A DNA stretch of 64,000 nucleotides, taken from assembly GCF_000744775.1 (NCBI RefSeq), contig NZ_JQMP01000004.1, forward strand, positions 434,001 to 498,000, given 5' to 3'. The translations under genes were made by a program, and so were the position numbers. Positions 317 through 44,802 of this stretch are shown piece by piece. Position 1 is the first letter of the stretch. Each line of letters starts with the position of its first letter. This DNA is from Thermorudis peleae (GTDB lineage Bacteria > Chloroflexota > Chloroflexia > Thermomicrobiales > Thermomicrobiaceae). The notes under the pieces are model-generated. The model did no database searches, was not told where the DNA came from, and saw only the letters and a list, made by a program, of their open reading frames with translations.

Positions 317-348
317 CGAGCAGGGGCACGGCCTCTGCTCGTTTCTTT
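317..348 (+). terminator. terminator-like hairpin (attenuator?) before pheS
   Basis: CGAGCAGGGG (317-326) pairs with CCTCTGCTCG (332-341), with one G-U pair and a 5-base loop, and TTTCTTT (342-348) follows. The flanking genes eno and pheS are divergent, so no gene needs an end-of-operon terminator here. A terminator inside the leader suggests transcription attenuation of pheST. The mechanism is inferred. Confidence 0.5.
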
Positions 349-24670: not shown

Positions 24671-24839
24671 CCTTATTAGTCCTTTGGTGGAAACAAGGAC
24701 CAGAGAATCAGGAGATGAATCTGCAAGGGAGCGGGCATCGTTCGCAAAATTTCTGTCCCGTCCATCATTCTGCATTCTCCTCAGAGAGCAACGCACGATA
24801 GTGCTTGTGAGGTTCCGCGTAACGAAAGGACGGAATCGG

Positions 24840-27464
24840 GTGGGGCGGTTGCACGCTCGTATCAGGTGGATAATCTGCTTCGCGCTTTTCGCAACGCTCT
24901 GTTTCTCCTCCATTGCCGCAACACCTGCACTTTCTCCTGCCCCACAGTGGCCATTCGCAGCGCAGCCACAGAGTGTCGTGTTCTTTCCCTGGCTACCAAA
25001 CGGACAGCGTATCGGCACTCTCGGTCCATGGCATAGTGTCGCCATTCTCCAAAACATCGAAGAGTACCCGATTACTATCGACCTTTGGCAGCCGGGAGAC
25101 TATACGCACCCGATTAAGACCCTGACCCTGCCATCACACGGCATCGAAACAATCGCACCAGAGGCGCTCTTCACGTCAACCGACGAAGGAGCACACGCAC
25201 TCGTGGCAACAGCGCGACCTGCCTTGCCGAGCACGTCAAACCCGCCATCGGATACCATCTGCAACAAGACCTTCGCTACTCGCACGTTTGTGGTCCACAA
25301 AGGCGGGCAAAACACGGCAGATACGATCAAACTTGATCCATCAATCACCCCAAAGGTCATCATCATCCGCTACGGTGCCTACGAGTCATTCGCTGGCATT
25401 GGCCAACTCTCAAACGACCATGAATGGCGAGCACTTCGCACGACCACTGGACTGAGTATCGACTGGCGAGCGACGAGAGATAGTACGGAGCCGGATCCGA
25501 TTAGCACGAATGCGAACTACGATGTCATCCTGCCCGTGATTGACCAGCAGTGCAGTACGATCACCGCTCGGATTGCTGGGGCAGTCAAGCTCGTTGAGCC
25601 GCTGCCAGCACCCGAAGCGATCACCTCCCAAGGGCACGCTATCGTATCAGGGTATACGGCACTTGGACTTACCGAACTACTGCACGCGGCTCAACTCCCT
25701 GAAGAGAGTAAGTTTGCTGACCTCCTGGCAAGTACTGAGCCGACACGCTGGGCGTTTCCCATTGTTCAAAGCAACAACGGTTGGGAAAGTGTCATCCATC
25801 TTACCAACCTGGCCACGGCAGGTAGCTGTAAGGCCACTATTGACCTCTTGCCTTCGGCTGAGATGGCGATGAGTCATCAACCGCTTCGTGTTCAAGCAGC
25901 AGTGACTGCTGGAGCAACACGCTCGCTCCACCTTGTTGACCTTCTGGAAAACAATGGGGTCTCCGCGCAAAACTGGGTTGGACAAGCGTGGATTACTGCG
26001 CCATGCCCGGTGGTCGCAAGCGTTGACCGTATCAAGCCCTCAACACTTATGGCCTTGACCAATGTGCCGGTCGCTCGCGCTGCCGATAGTCCACGCGTTG
26101 TGACGGCACCGCTCATCTTCCAGTCCTACAATGGCTGGAACAGTGGGATTAATATCAGCAACCTTTCGGATAGTGAGGAAAATCTGGTAACGCTCAGCTT
26201 TTACGACACCCAAGGTACACTGCTTGGCAAAGTTGAACGTACGCTGCCTCCCAGCGGCATGACCTTTGTCTACCGCCCATCATTCGATGGCGCCGGCATC
26301 GAAGGGCTCTCACAGGCCACCGTTGTTGGCACCGAGCCAATTGCGGTTGCCGTCGATGCCGTCAAGTATCAAGGCAACAAGCTCGACGGCCAGGGCCAAG
26401 CGCTCAGTTATCTTGCGCCGAGTGGCGCAGCCGAGGGAGAGTTCCTTACTCTGCCACTCGTCCAAAAAGGCGATGGTAGCCAGCGAGCTGATACGAGTGG
26501 CATCAATCTCTTCAATACAAGCGCAACGACTCCCGCTGAGGTCGTCGTGCGCTTCTTTGATCACATGGGGCATGAGGTACCGAGTAGCACTCAGTCGCTG
26601 ACGCTCGCCCCCCACAGTGGTCAAACGCTCTACACACCACGCCTCAGCGCACTAACACCTGGATTTCACGGCAGTGCGGTCGTTGCCGTACGGACAGGCG
26701 GACCAGTAAGCGCTATCTCGAATAACGTCAACTACGCTGTCGCTGTCGACGGCTCGACTACGTTTAGCCTCGTGACCACACCACCTGGGCTACCCATGCC
26801 CCAGCCAACAGGCGAGTATGCTATTACCTTAACGGCGTCGGCCGACATCAGTCAAATCAACGTTCCAATCCAATTGACCGCAAAAACTACAGGCAGTGTG
26901 ATTCCGATTACCCTCTTTTCGCTATCCGACCACAGCATCCTATGGTTCAACGTAAGCAACGAAGCAGGCCAAGTCGCATATTCCCATGTCCATACTGATC
27001 CTCAGCGAACTGACCAGGTGCTTGCCTGTATCGACCTTGACCTGAGCCTTTCATGCGATCAAGGCGAGCCACGCGCAGCCGTGACGCTCCAGTGGGTGAA
27101 CTACCAACTCGCATTCCCTGCTGACGGCTCCAATCCCCCGTATGGCGACTCAGAAACGGTCCAGCTAACGGTTCTTGTTACGGACATCGGCATGCAATCA
27201 CACAGCGTTGCAGGAGCGCGCGTCCTCTTCAGCATTCTGGAAGAGGGAAATGATAATCCGGCACCTGCCGTCATTGGTTCAGCAACACCACTAACCGATG
27301 CTAACGGGAAAGCCTCTGTCACCATCCTGCGCAACGGTAGTGAAGCTGGTACAACGACGATCGTTCGGGCCTGCGTTGACGTTAACCGAAACGGCCAGTG
27401 CGATAGTACGAGTGAGACGGCAGGAGAGCCACATGATGACTGGATTATCACGTGGAGTTCCTAA
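24840..27464 (+). CDS. large secreted surface protein with repeats and an Ig-like domain
   Basis: The product (874 aa from GTG 24840) has a signal peptide (VGRLHARIRWIICFALFATL..., cleavage after roughly residue 30). Three imperfect beta-rich repeats start near residues 304, 419 and 533, each beginning with P-L/I-V/F-Q-x(2)-NGWxSxIxLxNL-like or related sequence. The C-terminus (about 770-870) resembles a bacterial Big-1/invasin Ig-like domain (GARVLFSILEEG, TPLTDANGKASVTILRNG), with a possible calcium loop DVNRNGQCD. No enzyme motif or sorting signal is seen. It is probably extracellular; function unknown. GTG 24840 was chosen because the signal peptide follows and AAAGGA precedes. Confidence 0.78.
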   Translation: MGRLHARIRWIICFALFATLCFSSIAATPALSPAPQWPFAAQPQSVVFFPWLPNGQRIGTLGPWHSVAILQNIEEYPITIDLWQPGDYTHPIKTLTLPSHGIETIAPEALFTSTDEGAHALVATARPALPSTSNPPSDTICNKTFATRTFVVHKGGQNTADTIKLDPSITPKVIIIRYGAYESFAGIGQLSNDHEWRALRTTTGLSIDWRATRDSTEPDPISTNANYDVILPVIDQQCSTITARIAGAVKLVEPLPAPEAITSQGHAIVSGYTALGLTELLHAAQLPEESKFADLLASTEPTRWAFPIVQSNNGWESVIHLTNLATAGSCKATIDLLPSAEMAMSHQPLRVQAAVTAGATRSLHLVDLLENNGVSAQNWVGQAWITAPCPVVASVDRIKPSTLMALTNVPVARAADSPRVVTAPLIFQSYNGWNSGINISNLSDSEENLVTLSFYDTQGTLLGKVERTLPPSGMTFVYRPSFDGAGIEGLSQATVVGTEPIAVAVDAVKYQGNKLDGQGQALSYLAPSGAAEGEFLTLPLVQKGDGSQRADTSGINLFNTSATTPAEVVVRFFDHMGHEVPSSTQSLTLAPHSGQTLYTPRLSALTPGFHGSAVVAVRTGGPVSAISNNVNYAVAVDGSTTFSLVTTPPGLPMPQPTGEYAITLTASADISQINVPIQLTAKTTGSVIPITLFSLSDHSILWFNVSNEAGQVAYSHVHTDPQRTDQVLACIDLDLSLSCDQGEPRAAVTLQWVNYQLAFPADGSNPPYGDSETVQLTVLVTDIGMQSHSVAGARVLFSILEEGNDNPAPAVIGSATPLTDANGKASVTILRNGSEAGTTTIVRACVDVNRNGQCDSTSETAGEPHDDWIITWSS

Positions 27465-28677: not shown

Positions 28678-28686
28678 TGGTATACT
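28678..28686 (+). promoter_or_regulatory. extended -10 promoter of the riboswitch operon
   Basis: TGG directly followed by TATACT (28681-28686) is an extended -10 element; no good -35 is present (CCGTCA near 28658-28663). Transcription would start near 28693, only a few bases before the fluoride aptamer. Confidence 0.65.
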
Positions 28687-28696
28687 ACGCTACGCA

Positions 28697-28762
28697 GGTG
28701 ATGAGGCTCACCAGGCGGCACAAGACCGCCGAACCGCCGAGCGGCTGATGGCCTCTACGCAG
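28697..28762 (+). ncRNA. fluoride riboswitch aptamer (crcB motif)
   Basis: GGTGATGAGGCTCACC (28697-28712) and GGCTGATGGCCTCTACG (28743-28759) match the conserved halves of the crcB fluoride aptamer, closely resembling the Thermotoga petrophila example that I recall. P1 is GGTG/CACC; the loop GAGGC (28703-28707) can form the pseudoknot with GCCTC (28751-28755); P2 is GCC/GGC (28736-28745) around GAGC, followed by the invariant TGATGG. A GGCGG/CCGCC hairpin (28714-28730) is inserted between P1 and P2. The aptamer begins just after the predicted transcription start. Recognition is from memory of the consensus. Confidence 0.9.
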
Positions 28763-28789
28763 TTCCGGATTATTCCGGTAGCGTGGAGG
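28752..28789 (+). promoter_or_regulatory. Shine-Dalgarno-sequestering hairpin of the riboswitch
   Basis: CCTCTACGC (28752-28760) can pair with GCGTGGAGG (28781-28789), nine pairs including one wobble, with an inner CCGG/CCGG. This would bury the ribosome site GGAGG (28785-28789) of the ATG at 28797. CCTC is also part of the aptamer pseudoknot, so the two structures exclude each other. Fluoride binding would therefore free the site and turn translation on. No terminator is seen before the ATG. Confidence 0.65.
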
Positions 28790-28796
28790 TTTTCTT

Positions 28797-29951
28797 ATGG
28801 TGCATGAAACACCGGCCATGCGAACAGGAGGAACAGCCGAGCAGCGTGGCGGATGGCTTGCACGCATTTCCCGCCTGTTTCGCACTCGTCCAACTATCCA
28901 GCCAGACCGCGTGCTCATTGCAATGCTCACGGAAGCGATCGCCTTACCTGGTTGCCCAGTCTGTCGGCTCCTTGCAGAGCGCGAATTGCGCGGGCTGGAA
29001 TCAATCCTGTGGGAACAGGTCACCGATCCAGATACTCATCGCGCACTACTGGCCGCGCGCGGTTTTTGCTTCATTCATAGTTGGGCACTCATACCAGCTG
29101 GTGATCATGTATTCAGTCACCATGGTGTGGCAATCCTTCTGCAGCGCATTCTCGTCGATCTACTCCAAACAGTAAAGATCGGTGGCGTTACAGCTGCTCG
29201 GCGCTGGCTCACCCCTCGTACTCCCTGCCCGGCTTGCATCTGGGAAGCCCAACGAGAATCGACGCTGCTTACCGCGCTGGCGTGGATCGCCATGCACGAG
29301 CCAGAACTCGTCGTCAGTGAGCCAGCGCTACTCTGCCAGCCACATGCCCACCTTCTTGCCATCACCCTTGAGCGAATCGCCCCAGCTCAAGCAGCGCGCT
29401 GGCGTTCGCTGCTTGACATCCTCGCCACACGATATGCGCACCACCATCGCAGCCTCGATAGTGAGCAACAGCTTGCACTGCGTGTTGGCCGACGACCACC
29501 ATATCTTCCACGCCAAGCTGAATATTGCCCATGGTGCCAAGCTGAGCGGGAATATCTCAGTAAGGGAACGGCCTGGCTGTGCGACCGCGCTCGGGCATGG
29601 ACCACCTATCTCGATGCTCCCCAGCTGGTTGCCCAGTTGCTGCTTGAGGAAGACCAAGCTTGGCCGGAAGCAGTTGCTCTGCCGATGGAGACGAGCAATC
29701 ACTCAGCGGAACCGCGCTGCCTTGGCCACCTTCGCCAAGCACTCACACAGCCAGACGCTGACCACGTTCTTGATGAGACGGTGGCCGCCTTCGAAGAGCT
29801 TGCTGAGCGTGCTCAACGATTTATTGCCAGTTCTGATTACCGTTTTCGCGGGCATCTGACTGACGAAGAGCGGCGAAGTTGGCGAGACCTTATCGCAGTC
29901 TTTGGTGGAGAAACGCCCGGTGTCTCGCTTCACGACGCACGGGTCTCGTGA
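28797..29951 (+). CDS. DUF6062 family protein
   Basis: The 384-aa product is cytoplasmic in appearance and dominated by repeated Cys/His motifs: GCPVCRLLAERELRGLESILWE (near 53), GFCFIHSWAL, CPACIWEAQRE (near 144), CQPHAHLLA, CPWCQAEREYL (near 243) and CLGHLRQAL. This pattern is that of DUF6062 proteins, of unknown function; the motifs could bind metal or form disulfides. GGAGG lies seven bases before ATG. It is the first of five closely spaced genes behind a fluoride riboswitch, so its expression is likely linked to fluoride. Confidence 0.82.
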   Translation: MVHETPAMRTGGTAEQRGGWLARISRLFRTRPTIQPDRVLIAMLTEAIALPGCPVCRLLAERELRGLESILWEQVTDPDTHRALLAARGFCFIHSWALIPAGDHVFSHHGVAILLQRILVDLLQTVKIGGVTAARRWLTPRTPCPACIWEAQRESTLLTALAWIAMHEPELVVSEPALLCQPHAHLLAITLERIAPAQAARWRSLLDILATRYAHHHRSLDSEQQLALRVGRRPPYLPRQAEYCPWCQAEREYLSKGTAWLCDRARAWTTYLDAPQLVAQLLLEEDQAWPEAVALPMETSNHSAEPRCLGHLRQALTQPDADHVLDETVAAFEELAERAQRFIASSDYRFRGHLTDEERRSWRDLIAVFGGETPGVSLHDARVS

Positions 29952-29967
29952 AACACGAGGATAAGTC

Positions 29968-30378
29968 ATGACGATGCATGGTAGCACTATCGCAGCGGAC
30001 TCCTTTACCGCTAAACTGATTGCAGGGCTGCGGCATCCTCGACCAGACATTGCTGAACACTGTGCCTGGATACTTGGCGAACAAAAGGAGCAGTACGCCG
30101 TACCCGCACTCTGCCAAACAATCCAGGAACGTCTGTGGGACGTCGATGTTGCAGCCGCCGCTGTTGCAGCACTCGGAAAGATCGGCGATCCGCAAGCTCT
30201 CCCGGCACTTCAATTTGCACTCCAGCATGGAGCAGCACGTGTCCGCGTCGAGGTTGTTGCAGCACTGCGGCAACTCCATACACCGCAAGCCGATGCGGTA
30301 TTGCGCGACATCGCGGAACATGATCCGTTAGCTAGTATTCGTGACCAAGCACTCCGCGCGCTCCAGAAGGGAAGGTAA
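29968..30378 (+). CDS. HEAT-repeat protein
   Basis: The 136-aa product consists of about three to four HEAT/PBS-lyase-type helical repeats: HPRPDIAEHCAWILGEQK, VDVAAAAVAALGKIGDPQALPALQFAL, and ARVRVEVVAALRQLHTPQADAVL. Such proteins are usually scaffolds or inhibitors. It lies 16 bases after DUF6062 and six before moxR, in the riboswitch operon, so it may mediate interaction with the MoxR ATPase. GAGGATAAGTC precedes ATG 29968. Confidence 0.88.
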   Translation: MTMHGSTIAADSFTAKLIAGLRHPRPDIAEHCAWILGEQKEQYAVPALCQTIQERLWDVDVAAAAVAALGKIGDPQALPALQFALQHGAARVRVEVVAALRQLHTPQADAVLRDIAEHDPLASIRDQALRALQKGR

Positions 30379-30384
30379 ACGTTC

Positions 30385-31389
30385 ATGGGACAAATGACGC
30401 CGATGCCCCGGCTTGATGCGACAGCCGCAGAACGTATCCAAGCACTTGCACAGCGCATTTGCGATACCGTTGAGCGAGTTATCGTGGGGAAACGGGCAGT
30501 TATCGAGCAAGTCCTTGTTGCCCTGCTCGCCGATGGCCATGTGTTAATTGAAGACGTCCCTGGTATCGGCAAAACCAAGCTCGCCCGTACGCTCTGCCAA
30601 ACGCTCGGGGGCACCTTCCAACGTATCCAATTCACACCAGATCTGCTCCCCACCGACATTCTCGGCACCCTTGCCTACCAACCGCAGGACGGATCGTTTC
30701 GTTTTCATCCTGGTCCAATTTTCGCCCATGTCATCCTCGCGGACGAAGTGAACCGCGGCACCCCGCGTACCCAAGCTGCATTGCTGGAGGCGATGGAAGA
30801 GCGCCAGGTGACGGTTGAACGCCAAACGTATCCGCTTCCACGGCCATTTTTGGTGATTGCGACACAAAATCCTGTTGAACTTGAAGGCACCTTTCCCCTA
30901 CCGGAAGCGCAACTCGACCGCTTTTTGCTGCGAATCCGCATGGGATATCCCGAGCGAGAAGACGAACGAGCGCTCCTTGGGCGATTTCTGCATGGTGATC
31001 CCCTGCAAGCAATTCAGCCCGTGACAAGTCCAGAAGAACTCATTGAGGCAAGCCAGCTGGTGCGCGCTGTGCACATCAGTCCACCCGTCGAAGATTACCT
31101 TCTTGATCTCGTTGCCCGAACGCGCACCCATCCTGACCTAACGCTCGGCGTTAGTCCACGTGGCACGCTTGCACTTGCACGGGCGGCTCAAGCCTATGCC
31201 ATCCTCCATGGCCGCGCATATGTCTTGCCAGATGACGTGCGCACGATGGCGATTCCGGCACTGGCACATCGGTTGCTCCTTGCCCCCAGCGCTGAACTCC
31301 ATGGGCGAACGGCGGAAACCGTGCTCGGGCAGATCGTGGCTGAGTTACCTGTGCCAGTCGAGCCTGATGTCGAGCTGCTGGAGACATAG
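30385..31389 (+). CDS. MoxR-family AAA+ ATPase
   Basis: The 334-aa product has Walker A (DVPGIGKTKLA, near residue 55), the following FQRIQFTPDLLPTDILGT, Walker B (VILADEVNRGTPRTQAALLEAMEE, near 118), sensor 1 (VIATQNPVELEGTFPLPEAQLDRF) and a sensor 2 region (VSPRGTLALARAAQAYAI). MoxR ATPases act as chaperones that load metals or assemble complexes. It is followed by DUF58 and DUF4129, a usual partner set, nine bases apart. Confidence 0.95.
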   Translation: MGQMTPMPRLDATAAERIQALAQRICDTVERVIVGKRAVIEQVLVALLADGHVLIEDVPGIGKTKLARTLCQTLGGTFQRIQFTPDLLPTDILGTLAYQPQDGSFRFHPGPIFAHVILADEVNRGTPRTQAALLEAMEERQVTVERQTYPLPRPFLVIATQNPVELEGTFPLPEAQLDRFLLRIRMGYPEREDERALLGRFLHGDPLQAIQPVTSPEELIEASQLVRAVHISPPVEDYLLDLVARTRTHPDLTLGVSPRGTLALARAAQAYAILHGRAYVLPDDVRTMAIPALAHRLLLAPSAELHGRTAETVLGQIVAELPVPVEPDVELLET

Positions 31390-31398
31390 GAGCAGGCG

Positions 31399-32652
31399 AT
31401 GGATGATGCCGCTGCACTCTTTGACACTGAGCAGGCTGATCGCCTTCCACCACTCCTAGGTCTTGCTTGCCTTGTCGTGCTTGCTGGACTCGCATTGCGT
31501 CAGCCCCTGCTCGCCTTTCTCGGCGCAGTCGTTGCCGTGACCTTGGTGCTCGCGCTGCTCTGGCGCCGCGTGGGGCTACGCGCCGTGCACTACACGCGCC
31601 AACTTTCCACCACACGGGCATTCCCTGGCGAACTGATCACCATGGAACTCATTCTCGAGAACAACAAACTTCTTCCACTTCCCTGGTTAGAGGTTGAAGA
31701 TGACATCCCTGATGGCCTAGCAACTCGAGAGGCCCAGCTTGAGCCGTCCTTCAAACCAAAGACGCATGTATTGCGTACCCTCTTCGGGATCCGGCCCTAT
31801 GAGCGCATTCGCCGGCGCTACACGCTCATCCCGCAACGCCGTGGAGTATTTCGATTTGGGCCAGCTCGCCTTCGTACCGGCGATCCATTCGGACTCGCAT
31901 TCACACGCCAAGAGATCGATGAGCGAACCGAACTTCTGGTTTACCCTCCGCTGCTCCCCCTCGAAGTATTCCAGGTACCAGCTGAACATCCCCTTGGAGA
32001 ACGATCACCACTGCGGCCATTCCTCGAAGACCCAACACGCTATGCGGGTGTACGCCCTTATGCCCCAGGCGACGCCCCACGACGAATCCATTGGGCAGCG
32101 ACAGCGCGGACCGGCGAAGTGCAAGTCAAACACTTTGAACCAGGCGCAACACCGCTCTTAGCACTCTTTCTCGACATCAACACCTTTCAGCATTACTGGG
32201 AAGGGCTTGATCCCGAGAAGCTTGAGCACGCGATCGCCCTCTGCGCCGCCTTAGCGCGTTGGGGACTTGATGCAGGATACCAAGTTGGCCTTTATGTCAA
32301 CGCTCCACAGGCAGGCGGTGAGCGGTTGATTCGCCTGCCGGCAAGTCGTCATCCACGTCAGCTCCAACGGATTCTGGAAGCCCTTGCGCGCCTCGTTCCG
32401 TATACGGGTTATCGCATCGAGCGCCTGCTTGCCAGTGAAGCACGCATGCTTCCTTGGGGGGCAACGCTTGCCGTGATCACCGCCCTGGTTACGCCAGAGC
32501 TTGAACGGACACTCATCCGCCTTTACCGTGAGGGGCATACGATTGCTCTCTTCGCTGTCGGAGACGCGCCAAGCCTTCCTTCGCGACCTGGCTTTGTCAT
32601 TCATACGCTGGAGGATTTGCCGAATGCGACGATGGCTGCCTCATCCGCTTGA
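31399..32652 (+). CDS. DUF58 membrane protein
   Basis: The 417-aa product has two hydrophobic helices near the N-terminus (about 15-55, LLGLACLVVLAGLAL and FLGAVVAVTLVLALL), a beta-rich region (RRGVFRFGPARLRTGDPFGLAFTR) and the DUF58 signature VRPYAPGDAPRRIHWAATARTGEVQVKHFEP near 220. DUF58 proteins pair with MoxR and often carry a vWA-like fold with a MIDAS-type site; here only LALFLDI is suggestive. It overlaps the next gene by 29 bases. Confidence 0.92.
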   Translation: MDDAAALFDTEQADRLPPLLGLACLVVLAGLALRQPLLAFLGAVVAVTLVLALLWRRVGLRAVHYTRQLSTTRAFPGELITMELILENNKLLPLPWLEVEDDIPDGLATREAQLEPSFKPKTHVLRTLFGIRPYERIRRRYTLIPQRRGVFRFGPARLRTGDPFGLAFTRQEIDERTELLVYPPLLPLEVFQVPAEHPLGERSPLRPFLEDPTRYAGVRPYAPGDAPRRIHWAATARTGEVQVKHFEPGATPLLALFLDINTFQHYWEGLDPEKLEHAIALCAALARWGLDAGYQVGLYVNAPQAGGERLIRLPASRHPRQLQRILEALARLVPYTGYRIERLLASEARMLPWGATLAVITALVTPELERTLIRLYREGHTIALFAVGDAPSLPSRPGFVIHTLEDLPNATMAASSA

Positions 32653-34084
32653 CATTATCCTCAGTGTCCTTGTCGCCAGTGCGGAAGCCCTTACGCTTCT
32701 CCCGTGGCTTCATCTTGGTGCTGCGATGGTGTCATCACAGACCCAACCCCCCGCAGGGCTCGTGCTTGGTGGACTCGGGCTCGTTGCATTCTGGCTCGCC
32801 CGCTTGCTCCTTGCTGCGGGTTGGGACGTTGGGTTTGCTCGGGCAATCAGTGCCCTGGCGTGGATCTGGTGTACGCTGCTTTGGATTGGCCTCACTTCGC
32901 ACGGCGGGATCCTTGCACCACTCATCGGGATCGTTCAACTCCTGCACCTTCGTGGCCCGGCACTTGCCTTACTCATCCTGAGCGCTCTGGCATGGTGGCG
33001 CGGCCTCACGCTCGGCGCTGACCCACGCCCATTCACGAGTGACTTTGTCCGACGCAGCCTTATTCGCGATCTGGTTCTTGTTGGCGGCGCGCTGTTCTTC
33101 GTGCTTGTTAGCAAGCACCTGGCTGAAAGCGCTGGCGCAACATTGAGCTGGGTTGTTCCGACACTCGCAGCCCTCCGTCTCATTACAGCCGCAACAGTGC
33201 AAGCGGCAGCGGTACAACACTCGGCTGCTCGACGCGTGGGAGGCACACTCCAGGTAAGACGCTGGCTGAGCAGCGCAACGGGTCTTGCGCTCTTCACTGT
33301 TGCGTTCGCAGCACTTATCAGTCTGCTTGCTGGCCCGGCACTCTGGCAGTGGCTTGCGACACCACTGAGCTGGATCCTTACCGGCATCGAAACCGTGCTC
33401 TTCTTTATCCTTGCTGCGTTTGCCTACGTCCTCTTTCTACTCCTCACTCCGATAACGTGGCTTCTCCACCATGGCGGAAGCGCGCATCAGCCACTTCCCC
33501 AACAGCCACCGGCTTTCCCGACGTTCCACGAAGCCGCTAACCATGCACGGTTTGGACTGCCGCCGATTCTTCGCTTTGGGGTCGAACTTGCTATCGGTAT
33601 TTCCCTGGCGGCTGGTATTCTTCTGCTTGTTGTTCGCGGGCTGCGTCGTTATCACATCGCAACAGGTGAAGAAAGCACGCAGGATATCCACGAAGCAACC
33701 TGGTCGCGTGCGCTTGTCATGGAGCAGATCCGCGGTCTTCTTCGGCGTCCGACACAAAAGCGTGCCCAGCGACGTGTACCAACGACGCCTCAGACCGTTC
33801 GTGAGGCATACCAGGCTGCCCTCTGGCTCCTCAGCGAGTACGGCTTCAGCCGGCGAGCCCCAGAGACACCACTGGATTATCTTGCACGCCTACAGCACAT
33901 GCTCAACGAAACAACGAGCACCTTTGCCGATTTGACAGCGCGGTATCTTGTTGCGCGCTATGGTGAGCGTGCAACCAGCGAAGATGATACTGCGGCCGTT
34001 GCCGATTGGCAGGCTCTGCACCGCTCTCTCCATGCGCGTTCTGCCCAACAAAGACAAGGGAAACGGCTGCGAGGGACATCATAA
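32624..34084 (+). CDS. multi-pass membrane protein with C-terminal DUF4129
   Basis: The 486-aa product has roughly nine to eleven hydrophobic helices in the first 350 residues (the first ILSVLVASAEALTLLPWL), and a cytoplasmic C-terminus with the DUF4129 pattern TVREAYQAALWLLSEYGFSRRAPETPLDYLARL. In related operons this is fused to or replaced by a transglutaminase; no transglutaminase triad (Cys-His-Asp) is visible here. GAGGA lies before ATG 32624, which is inside the DUF58 gene; an upstream frame to 32501 is unlikely. It is the last gene of the riboswitch operon. Confidence 0.85.
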   Translation: MRRWLPHPLDIILSVLVASAEALTLLPWLHLGAAMVSSQTQPPAGLVLGGLGLVAFWLARLLLAAGWDVGFARAISALAWIWCTLLWIGLTSHGGILAPLIGIVQLLHLRGPALALLILSALAWWRGLTLGADPRPFTSDFVRRSLIRDLVLVGGALFFVLVSKHLAESAGATLSWVVPTLAALRLITAATVQAAAVQHSAARRVGGTLQVRRWLSSATGLALFTVAFAALISLLAGPALWQWLATPLSWILTGIETVLFFILAAFAYVLFLLLTPITWLLHHGGSAHQPLPQQPPAFPTFHEAANHARFGLPPILRFGVELAIGISLAAGILLLVVRGLRRYHIATGEESTQDIHEATWSRALVMEQIRGLLRRPTQKRAQRRVPTTPQTVREAYQAALWLLSEYGFSRRAPETPLDYLARLQHMLNETTSTFADLTARYLVARYGERATSEDDTAAVADWQALHRSLHARSAQQRQGKRLRGTS

Positions 34085-42244: not shown

Positions 42245-42861
42245 GCTTGCCCTCCCTCCTGGCGTGATCCGACCAGTATGCGCTGGTGATAAGTCCGTGC
42301 GAGATCCAAGAAATTGGCCAGCAAGGCTTTGCCATGCTCGGTCAAGATCGACTCAGGGTGGAACTGGACGCCTTCAATGGGATACTGATGGTGGCGTATC
42401 CCCATGATCACTCCGTCATCACTGCGTGCCGAGACGCAGAGTTCAGCCGGCAGTGTCTCCGCCTCAACGACGAGCGAGTGATACCGGATTGCTGTGAACG
42501 GACTGGGAAGCCCAGTAAAGACACCCGAGCCATCGTGATAGACCTGTGACGTCTTGCCATGCATGAGGCTCGGGGCACGGACAACCCGTCCTCCAAAGGC
42601 TTCTGCAATGGCTTGATGGCCCAGACAAACGCCAAGCACCGGAATGTGGCCAGCAACAGCGCGGATGAGTGGCACCGAAATACCAGCTTCCCGTGGAGTG
42701 CAAGGGCCAGGAGAGATCACAATGCCATCTGGATGTAACCGGAGAACATCAGCAACATCAATCGCATCGTTGCGATAGACCGTGACTTCGGCTCCAAGTT
42801 CGACAAGATACTGGTAGAGGTTATAGGTAAAGGAGTCATAGTTATCGAGTAGGAGAATCAC
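42241..42861 (-). CDS. trpG: anthranilate synthase glutaminase subunit
   Basis: The 206-aa class I glutamine amidotransferase supplies ammonia to Trp[51 protein letters not shown] with the nucleophilic Cys, and [14 protein letters not shown] with catalytic His and Glu. It overlaps trpE and trpD by four bases each. Such subunits can also serve PabB, but no pabB is here. Confidence 0.97.
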
Positions 42862-44477
42862 ACTTCACCACCTTCCCGCTGTACACGTTCCATCGCTTCG
42901 CCCAGTTCAAGCGCACGCACGATTGCGCGAAGCTTCTGCCAGGTCTCCTGGAATTCACGTTCAGGAACGCTGTCGGCAACGATACCTGCACCCGCTTGGA
43001 GGTATGCCTTTGCGTCACGCATCACAATCGTGCGGATAGTGATCGCGGCATCGAGATTGCCGGTAAAATCGACATAGCCAACAGCACCGGCATAGGGTCC
43101 ACGCCACTCTGGTTCAAGCTCCGCGATGACTTCCATGGCACGAATCTTTGGTGCTCCACTGACCGTCCCAGCTGGGAAGCACGCCCGCAGCGCATCAATC
43201 CCACTGAGGTCAGCGCGGAGTCTTCCGGTTACCTGACTGACCAGATGCATGACATGGCTATACCGCTCGATCTCCATCAGGCGTGGCACGCGAACCGTGC
43301 CTGGTTCGGAGACGCGCCCAATGTCATTCCGGCCGAGATCAACGAGCATAATGTGCTCAGCACGTTCCTTTTCGTCAGCGAGCAATTCACGTGCCAACGC
43401 CTCGTCTTCTTCAGGCGTCCTGCCACGGGGACGGGTGCCGGCAATCGGGTGCATCGACAGCTGGTCGCCATCAAGCCGAACGAGCATCTCAGGAGATGCA
43501 CCGATGAGCACATCACGATCAAACTGCAAGAAGAACATGTAGGGCGAAGGATTGATACGGCGAAGTGCCCGATAAATCGTGAACGGGTGAGCCCCAGTCT
43601 CAGTAGCAAGACGACGCGAAAGCACCACCTGGATGATATCCCCGGCAGCAATGTAGGCCTTTGCTTGTTCAACCATGGCTTCATACTGGGACTGATCGAG
43701 ATTAGCCTGCAAGCGCTCGAGTATGGGGATGGAAGACAACGGATGGGTGCTGACCGGCACGATTGGCGGTTTTTGAAGCCGCTCGACGATCTGCTCGACC
43801 CGTGCGACTGCTGCGTCATATTCGCGGCCAGCAACACGCGGATCATCGATGACTGCATGGGCAACGACCGTCATCGTTCGTTCGATGTGATCAACAATCA
43901 CCATACTGGTCACGAGTTGGAAACACGCGTCGGGGAAGGCAAGTGGGTCCTGGGGAGCCGTTGGGATACGCTCGAAATAGCGCACTGCTTCATAGCTTAC
44001 ATAGCCGACCGCCCCACCAAGAAAGCGCGGCAACCCGGGCAACACTGCTGGACGCAAGGGCGCCAGGAGCGACTGAAGTAGCGTTAATGGATCAGTAAAA
44101 GGCCGCTGCTCTACGTGGGCTGCTCCTCCGTAATAATCTAGCCCTCCTGCGCGGTGATGAAGTCCAGAGCTATCGCCCAACGACGCGAACCATTGCACTG
44201 TCGCAAGACCATCGCGGCAGGTGAGCACCGCCGCAGGATCGGTGCCAATGAAGGAATAGCGCGCAAGCCGCTCGCCACCCTCAACACTTTCCAGCAAGAA
44301 GCCATACCGCCCTTGTGCGACTTTCAAGAAAACGGAGACGGGCGTTTCCAGATCCGCGTTCAAGACCCGATAGACGGGGATAACGGTGTAGCCAGCGTGA
44401 GCCAGTCGAATCACCTCGTCACGGCTCGGTTGGTATTGCTCGGTACGAGAGAAAGAAGGTGCGAATCCTACGACCAT
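42858..44477 (-). CDS. trpE: anthranilate synthase component I
   Basis: TrpE converts chorismate and ammonia to anthranilate. The 539-aa product has [15 protein letters not shown], the chorismate-binding domain with [83 protein letters not shown] and [18 protein letters not shown]. The S-type feedback site is not resolved here. ATG 44477 has GTGGAGC upstream; TTG 44501 lies within the T-box terminator distance and is unlikely. First gene of the trp operon. Confidence 0.97.
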
Positions 44478-44802
44478 GGCCCCGCTCCACTTTTGCTCCA
44501 ATACAAATTGCCCTCCGTCCCATCAGGGACGGAGGGCACATCGCCTTCCGCGGTACCACCCTGGTTGGGCGCAGCTCACGCGTACGCCCCACCTCTGCGA
44601 GTACGGGATCACAGCGTGATCCGATACCCCGCTCCCAGATAACGGTGGAGTCTCCGGCACCTCCTACTTGCACAAGGCGTTCGGGGTGCAGCTCCCGAGT
44701 CCATTCCGCGAAATCGCCAGCGCTGGCTTGCACCATCCGCCAGCTCTCTGAGCCGCGACCCTTCGCGTACTTGCCCCGTTCGCAGCCATTACCCTCTTTT
44801 GC
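44478..44802 (-). ncRNA. tRNA-Trp-sensing T-box riboswitch leader of the trp operon
   Basis: On the minus strand the leader contains AGGGTGGTACCGCGG (44548-44562), the T-box sequence, and an extended stem I with AGTA (E loop), GATGGTGCAAGCC, and the specifier-loop block GGAATGGACTC, whose TGG codon maps to 44701-44703. UGG is the Trp codon, matching the downstream trpE. Uncharged tRNA-Trp would pair with TGGT of the T-box and stop the terminator at 44510-44537 from forming. The leader is about 320 bases, normal for a full T-box. Confidence 0.93.
44510..44537 (-). terminator. T-box terminator hairpin upstream of trpE
   Basis: GCCCTCCGTCCC (44510-44521) and GGGACGGAGGGC (44526-44537) form a perfect 12-bp stem with a four-base loop, followed on the minus strand by AATTTGTATT. 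It competes with the T-box antiterminator. Confidence 0.9.

Follow-up and report, generated by a model that had tools for sequence, protein, structure and literature searches.

Fluoride riboswitches of the crcB motif (RF01734) form a known class in which control of transcription and control of translation have both been described, as separate modes. In the riboswitches of T. petrophila and B. cereus, the 3′ strand of the aptamer pseudoknot is shared with the base of a terminator, and fluoride blocks invasion by the terminator (PMC11077080, PMC13273304). The pseudoknot of this class forms first regardless of fluoride, and fluoride then stops the terminator from disrupting it (PMC11077080), a protective role of binding that is also reported in PMC13273304. 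In the translational type of Pseudomonas syringae and Burkholderia pseudomallei, to which we liken the present locus by type, an alternative to the pseudoknot that sequesters the Shine-Dalgarno (SD) sequence is expected, and no fluoride-dependent anti-termination is seen in vitro (PMC13273304), whereas the stem described below runs into a terminator-like U-tract. The precedent for a hybrid hairpin is the pT181 repC attenuator, with its engineered dual-control versions, which carries AGGAG in the 3′ half of the terminator hairpin; there, a single hairpin is able both to end transcription and to mask the ribosome-binding site, with the main effect in natural pT181 being on transcription (PMC5435934). 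Control of repC is by antisense RNA, unlike the ligand control that we propose below.

The locus described here lies in a 64,000-nt stretch of the Thermorudis peleae genome (hereafter the window). Like the T. petrophila and B. cereus riboswitches, it has an RF01734 aptamer whose pseudoknot strand is shared with the base of a terminator-like hairpin, and fluoride would likewise keep that hairpin from invading. It differs from them in that the first gene takes its SD from the 3′ arm of the hairpin, the U-tract runs directly into the start codon, the aptamer has an extra hairpin between P1 and P3, and the output is a DUF6062-HEAT-MoxR-DUF58-DUF4129 operon rather than crcB or eriC. We consider it reasonably likely that this is a fluoride ON riboswitch with a hybrid platform, in which transcription attenuation and SD sequestration would share one hairpin.

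The aptamer (28688–28764, forward strand, as are all features of this locus) matches RF01734 with 40.2 bits (E = 1.1e-7), above the gathering cut-off of 34 bits. The Rfam alignment and covariation identify P1 (28697–28701 with 28708–28712), P3, and the pseudoknot that joins the P1 loop to the 3′ strand. The first-pass annotation of the window had proposed that the P1 loop GAGGC (28703–28707), the 5′ strand of this pseudoknot, pairs with GCCTC (28751–28755); these coordinates are exact, all five of the five pairs can form, and the pairing covaries in relatives. By sequence and covariation, GCCTC is a shared switch strand, available either as the 3′ strand of the pseudoknot or as the base of the terminator/SD hairpin. 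The extra hairpin, GGCGG...CCGCC (28714–28730), is an insert in the Rfam alignment; similar inserts occur in the orthologous leaders of the family and are absent in the shorter aptamers of another family (L013, L024). P1–P3 inserts are probably common in the phylum, since many of its aptamer matches are 73–106 nt long rather than 60–65 nt. A simple promoter scan gave no match upstream of the window aptamer; a predicted extended −10 element, TGGTATACT, occupies 28678–28686, with a predicted RNA start at ∼28692–28694, just 5′ of P1. Either TGTGGTATACT or TGCTATACT stands at a similar distance 5′ of the aptamer in most orthologous leaders. The same genome holds four fluoride riboswitches, and the window aptamer scores below two of them (46.2 and 43.2 bits), as might a decayed or non-responsive riboswitch whose hairpin had become a constitutive attenuator. 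However, with a score above the cut-off and with five of five pseudoknot pairs and their covariation kept, we regard such decay as very improbable.

Downstream, the switch strand runs into a terminator-like, SD-sequestering hairpin, P4 (28752–28789). Its outer stem joins CCTCTACGC (28752–28760) to GCGTGGAGG (28781–28789) in 9 bp, including one G-U pair (U28756–G28785), and its inner helix joins 28765–28769 to 28774–28778. The first-pass annotation had placed the outer pairing exactly, and its 3′ arm does contain the SD of the ATG at 28797: GGAGG at 28785–28789, 7 nt before the start codon. Instability of this stem, which would have counted against the annotated switch, was not found; P4 and its tail (28752–28796) have a folding energy of −23.9 kcal/mol, where shuffles average −9.1 kcal/mol (z = −6.35) and 0 of 200 did as well. 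In the free fold the SD has an unpaired probability of 0.00 at 37°C, and the folding model keeps it fully paired across 37–70°C. Holding the pseudoknot strands frees most of it in the model: residues 28786–28789 become unpaired with a probability of 0.6–0.99 at 37°C and 0.8–0.97 at 60–70°C, 28785 stays mostly paired (unpaired 0.10–0.18), and the upper stem (28756–28760 with 28781–28785) persists. An SD that is paired in the free fold and released, in the model, by the pseudoknot is what an SD-sequestering platform calls for, and the annotated principle of an ON switch by mutual exclusion between the pseudoknot and the SD-containing stem is supported by fold, covariation, and SD placement. As isolated duplexes at 37°C, the 5-bp pseudoknot is the weaker of the two (−7.1 versus −14.8 kcal/mol for P4), and the ON state must therefore rest on ligand, Mg2+, and folding order or kinetics.

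P4 also has the form of an intrinsic terminator. The stem adjoins TTTTCTT (28790–28796; T-tail score 4.33) without a gap, so that the U-tract UUUUCUU doubles as the spacer between SD and start; this candidate tail includes one C and ends at the AUG. Hairpin and tail score d = +21.0 on a d’Aubenton-Carafa-type scale, which adds a T-tail term to hairpin energy per nucleotide. Values of d ≥ 20 occur at 3 sites on both strands of the 64-kb window and at 0 sites in 256 kb of four first-order shuffles, a background estimated on this window only. The d-score scan with shuffles replaced a simple terminator scan, which misses P4 because it accepts loops of up to 8 nt and the one that the outer stem closes is longer. 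The earlier statement that no terminator mode is visible is therefore wrong: a stable hairpin built on the pseudoknot 3′ strand and followed by a U-tract is the arrangement of a transcriptional platform, and the intrinsic terminator that a purely translational platform would lack has a clear candidate here.

The first-pass annotation had read the locus as a simple translational ON switch in which the hairpin only hides the SD, a reading that a transcription-level switch with a downstream terminator would have undone. Such a terminator is present in sequence, but it and the SD stem are one hairpin, so the translational half of the reading survives; ON control with SD sequestration holds up, and ‘simple translational’ does not, since the stem, with its T-rich tail, has the shape of a terminator as well. 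A purely translational switch would account for the placement of the SD and start codon, fluoride riboswitches of this type exist in P. syringae and B. pseudomallei (PMC13273304), and in some leaders of the order (L017, and L002 by eye) the arm carries an SD and there is no U-tract. Nonetheless, the window’s stable stem is directly followed by a terminator-like U-tract, and hairpin and T-rich tail are kept in nine of nine orthologous leaders, which makes this reading rather improbable.

Under the hybrid reading, the aptamer would form during RNA synthesis. With fluoride bound, the pseudoknot between the P1 loop and 28751–28755 would hold the switch strand so that lower P4 could not form, polymerase would pass the U-tract, and the SD GGAGG would be free. 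Without fluoride, the growing P4 would invade the pseudoknot, most transcripts would stop at UUUUCUU just 5′ of the AUG, and in those that read through, P4 would still tie up the SD in its 3′ arm. The output of the switch would be the five-gene operon. What the analysis shows directly is the sequence, its predicted folds, covariation, conservation, and the operon order; from these we infer fluoride binding, termination, the translational block, and the folding order, and sequence does not tell termination apart from SD blocking.

Comparison across the family bears on both halves of this scheme. Ten family genomes, the window’s own included, contain the first operon gene or a homolog, and in each the aptamer lies 33–96 nt upstream of the matched stretch; all nine orthologous leaders also keep the hairpin and the T-rich tail. 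Across 31 homologous leaders the P1 loop, the pseudoknot strand, and the hairpin 3′ arm change together (GAGGC/GCCTC/GAGGY, GGAGY/GCTCC/GGAGC, GAAGC/GCTTC/GAGGC, and GGGGT/ACTCC/GGAGT), so both alternative pairings are maintained. Leaders of genus g3 (L023, L025, L027, L029) read GCCTCTACGC...GCGTGGAGGC-TTTTGTG, with a 9-bp stem as in the window and an unrelated inner loop; their probable start codon is the GTG inside the U-tract, which gives an SD-to-start spacing of ∼5 nt versus 7 nt in the window. Leaders of genus g6 (L016, L018, L026, L028, L030) instead read GCCTCTGTC...GGCAGAGGC (GACAGAGGT in L028) and then a T-rich tail; L026, L028, and L030 have a separate GGAGG and ATG 3′ of the hairpin, and L016 and L018 have a weaker SD there. 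The SD thus lies inside the hairpin in g1, the window’s genus, and in g3, and outside it in g6, from which we assign the hybrid form to g1 and g3 and a plain terminator to g6.

These leaders also allow the hybrid reading to be weighed against a pure transcription attenuator of the B. cereus and T. petrophila kind. On that view, the overlap with the SD would be incidental, because any arm that pairs with CCUC must resemble GAGG. The terminator score of P4 fits this explanation, as do the terminator-like hairpins with separate SDs in the g6 orthologs and in the same-genome riboswitches L001 and L004, and the consensus of the class favours purines along the 3′ arm of the terminator (PMC13273304). 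Against it, the SD spacing in both g1 and g3 suits use, no other SD was seen before the ATG at 28797, and g1 and g3 accept a G-U pair to give GGAGG in the arm, where g6 has the Watson-Crick AGAGG. The window’s 3′ arm and tail are predicted to pair with the 16S tail at ∼−12.3 kcal/mol, compared with −5.8 kcal/mol for the g6 arm GGCAGAGG; use of the arm as an SD would predict such a stronger pairing. We therefore judge a pure attenuator unlikely.

By MoxR identity (71–74% versus 64–68%), g1 is probably a nearer relative of g3 than either is of g6, and for this reason the hybrid layout may reflect one evolutionary event. A similar overlap of SD and terminator, with a weaker score, occurs in an eriC-like leader of another family (L024, named by eye). 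In a survey of 68 leaders from the phylum, 39 score as terminators, and a terminator with a strong SD in its arm appears only in the g1 and g3 leaders of this operon and in L118, which has a poor tail; the survey takes the most stable hairpin, mis-assigns some loci (e.g. L001), and is a rough guide only. The window switch is thus a natural case in which one hairpin is apparently both terminator and SD lock, and the plain terminator form in g6 makes the step from transcriptional to translational control comparable within one operon.

The first gene of the operon (28797–29951) encodes a 384-aa protein that matches PF19538, the DUF6062 family, at 26.2 bits (E = 6.6e-6), just below the gathering cut-off of 27 bits. 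Two g6 homologs pass when their matching stretches are combined (30.6 and 30.5 bits), and by these sequence matches the window protein is a longer, related form of DUF6062. Homologs in nine other family genomes all stand behind a fluoride aptamer (9/9). The gene is followed by those for a 136-aa HEAT-repeat protein (29968–30378; in the same position in 8/8 relatives), a MoxR-type AAA+ ATPase (30385–31389; Pfam AAA_3), a DUF58 protein (31399–32652), and a DUF4129 protein (32501–34084), all assigned with Pfam. The mechanical ORF start of the last overlaps the DUF58 gene; its true start is probably near the DUF58 end. This five-gene order behind the aptamer is conserved in eight of eight relatives checked, from two other genera. 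A ThiO-like oxidase gene lies divergently upstream of the operon in both the window and g3. Convergent with the ThiO-like gene is a 926-aa ORF (24684–27464, forward strand) that has no NCBIfam match.

The association of DUF6062 with fluoride riboswitches extends beyond this family. Counting orthologs separately, 18 of 58 DUF6062 genes in the class lie within 4 kb downstream of a fluoride riboswitch on the same strand, and 18 of the 49 fluoride riboswitches have a DUF6062 gene so placed. In other Chloroflexota classes, at least 10 of 100 DUF6062 genes lie within 2.5 kb of one, against 0.025 expected under uniform placement. By these counts, DUF6062 genes of the Chloroflexota follow fluoride riboswitches much more frequently than chance placement would give. 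The link takes several forms, among them direct leaders, antiporter-DUF6062, and crcB-DUF6062 cases, with antiporter and CrcB recognised by eye from their sequences; ∼80% of DUF6062 genes lack a nearby riboswitch. A search with a 5-sequence DUF6062 alignment returned 15 named loci, four of them with a fluoride riboswitch above the cut-off and one with a weaker match; loci labelled Clostridia, Truepera, Rubrobacter, and Calditrichia had no fluoride riboswitch in the flanks examined. A 16-sequence alignment proved too diverse as a query and was dropped, and a pattern search with the window protein found no relative in named genomes.

DUF6062 proteins are predicted to be all-helical (pLDDT 87) and are rich in Cys and His, with the invariant motifs CxxC, GFC-x2-H (GYC in one member), CxxC, and C-x2-H. 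Searches of PDB folds with both predicted models gave no match (best E 1.7 and 1.0), and the matches from a profile search were all weak (best E 0.02, ribosomal protein bS18). As these searches yielded nothing beyond weak matches, we propose no biochemical function; a search of the available literature found no paper on DUF6062. This uncharacterised family probably belongs to the fluoride regulon. We lean slightly towards a fuller reading, in which DUF6062 would take part in how Chloroflexota respond to fluoride stress and, in the window’s family, would be connected to the MoxR-DUF58 operon by a dual transcription/translation fluoride switch. The regulon link is a more useful and interesting lead than the switch itself: it offers a way into the study of DUF6062 and hints at induction of a MoxR AAA+ operon by fluoride stress.

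Several other loci were noted along the way. The same-genome riboswitch L004 (G000:C3:478301-478376) has a strong terminator-like hairpin (d = 50) and leads to an apparent dynamin-type GTPase (GHFKRGKSTLVNAL, by eye), unusual for the class. Fluoride riboswitches stand back to back, as divergent pairs separated by less than 400 nt, at G002:C58:3803-4280, G011:C110:32179-32650, G213:C399:17336-17542, and G193:C1:235500-235729, and several fluoride riboswitches are clustered in G261:C30 and G328:C46; such clusters suggest fluoride-regulon islands. Elsewhere in the window, a terminator-like hairpin (317–341, forward strand; d = 30.3) ∼45 nt before pheS (386–1432) could be a pheS leader attenuator or the end of an upstream gene. 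Finally, a T-box leader (RF00230, 107.7 bits; 44522–44792, reverse strand) lies just upstream of trpE (42858–44501, TIGR00564), where it probably places tryptophan synthesis under tRNA-sensing control.
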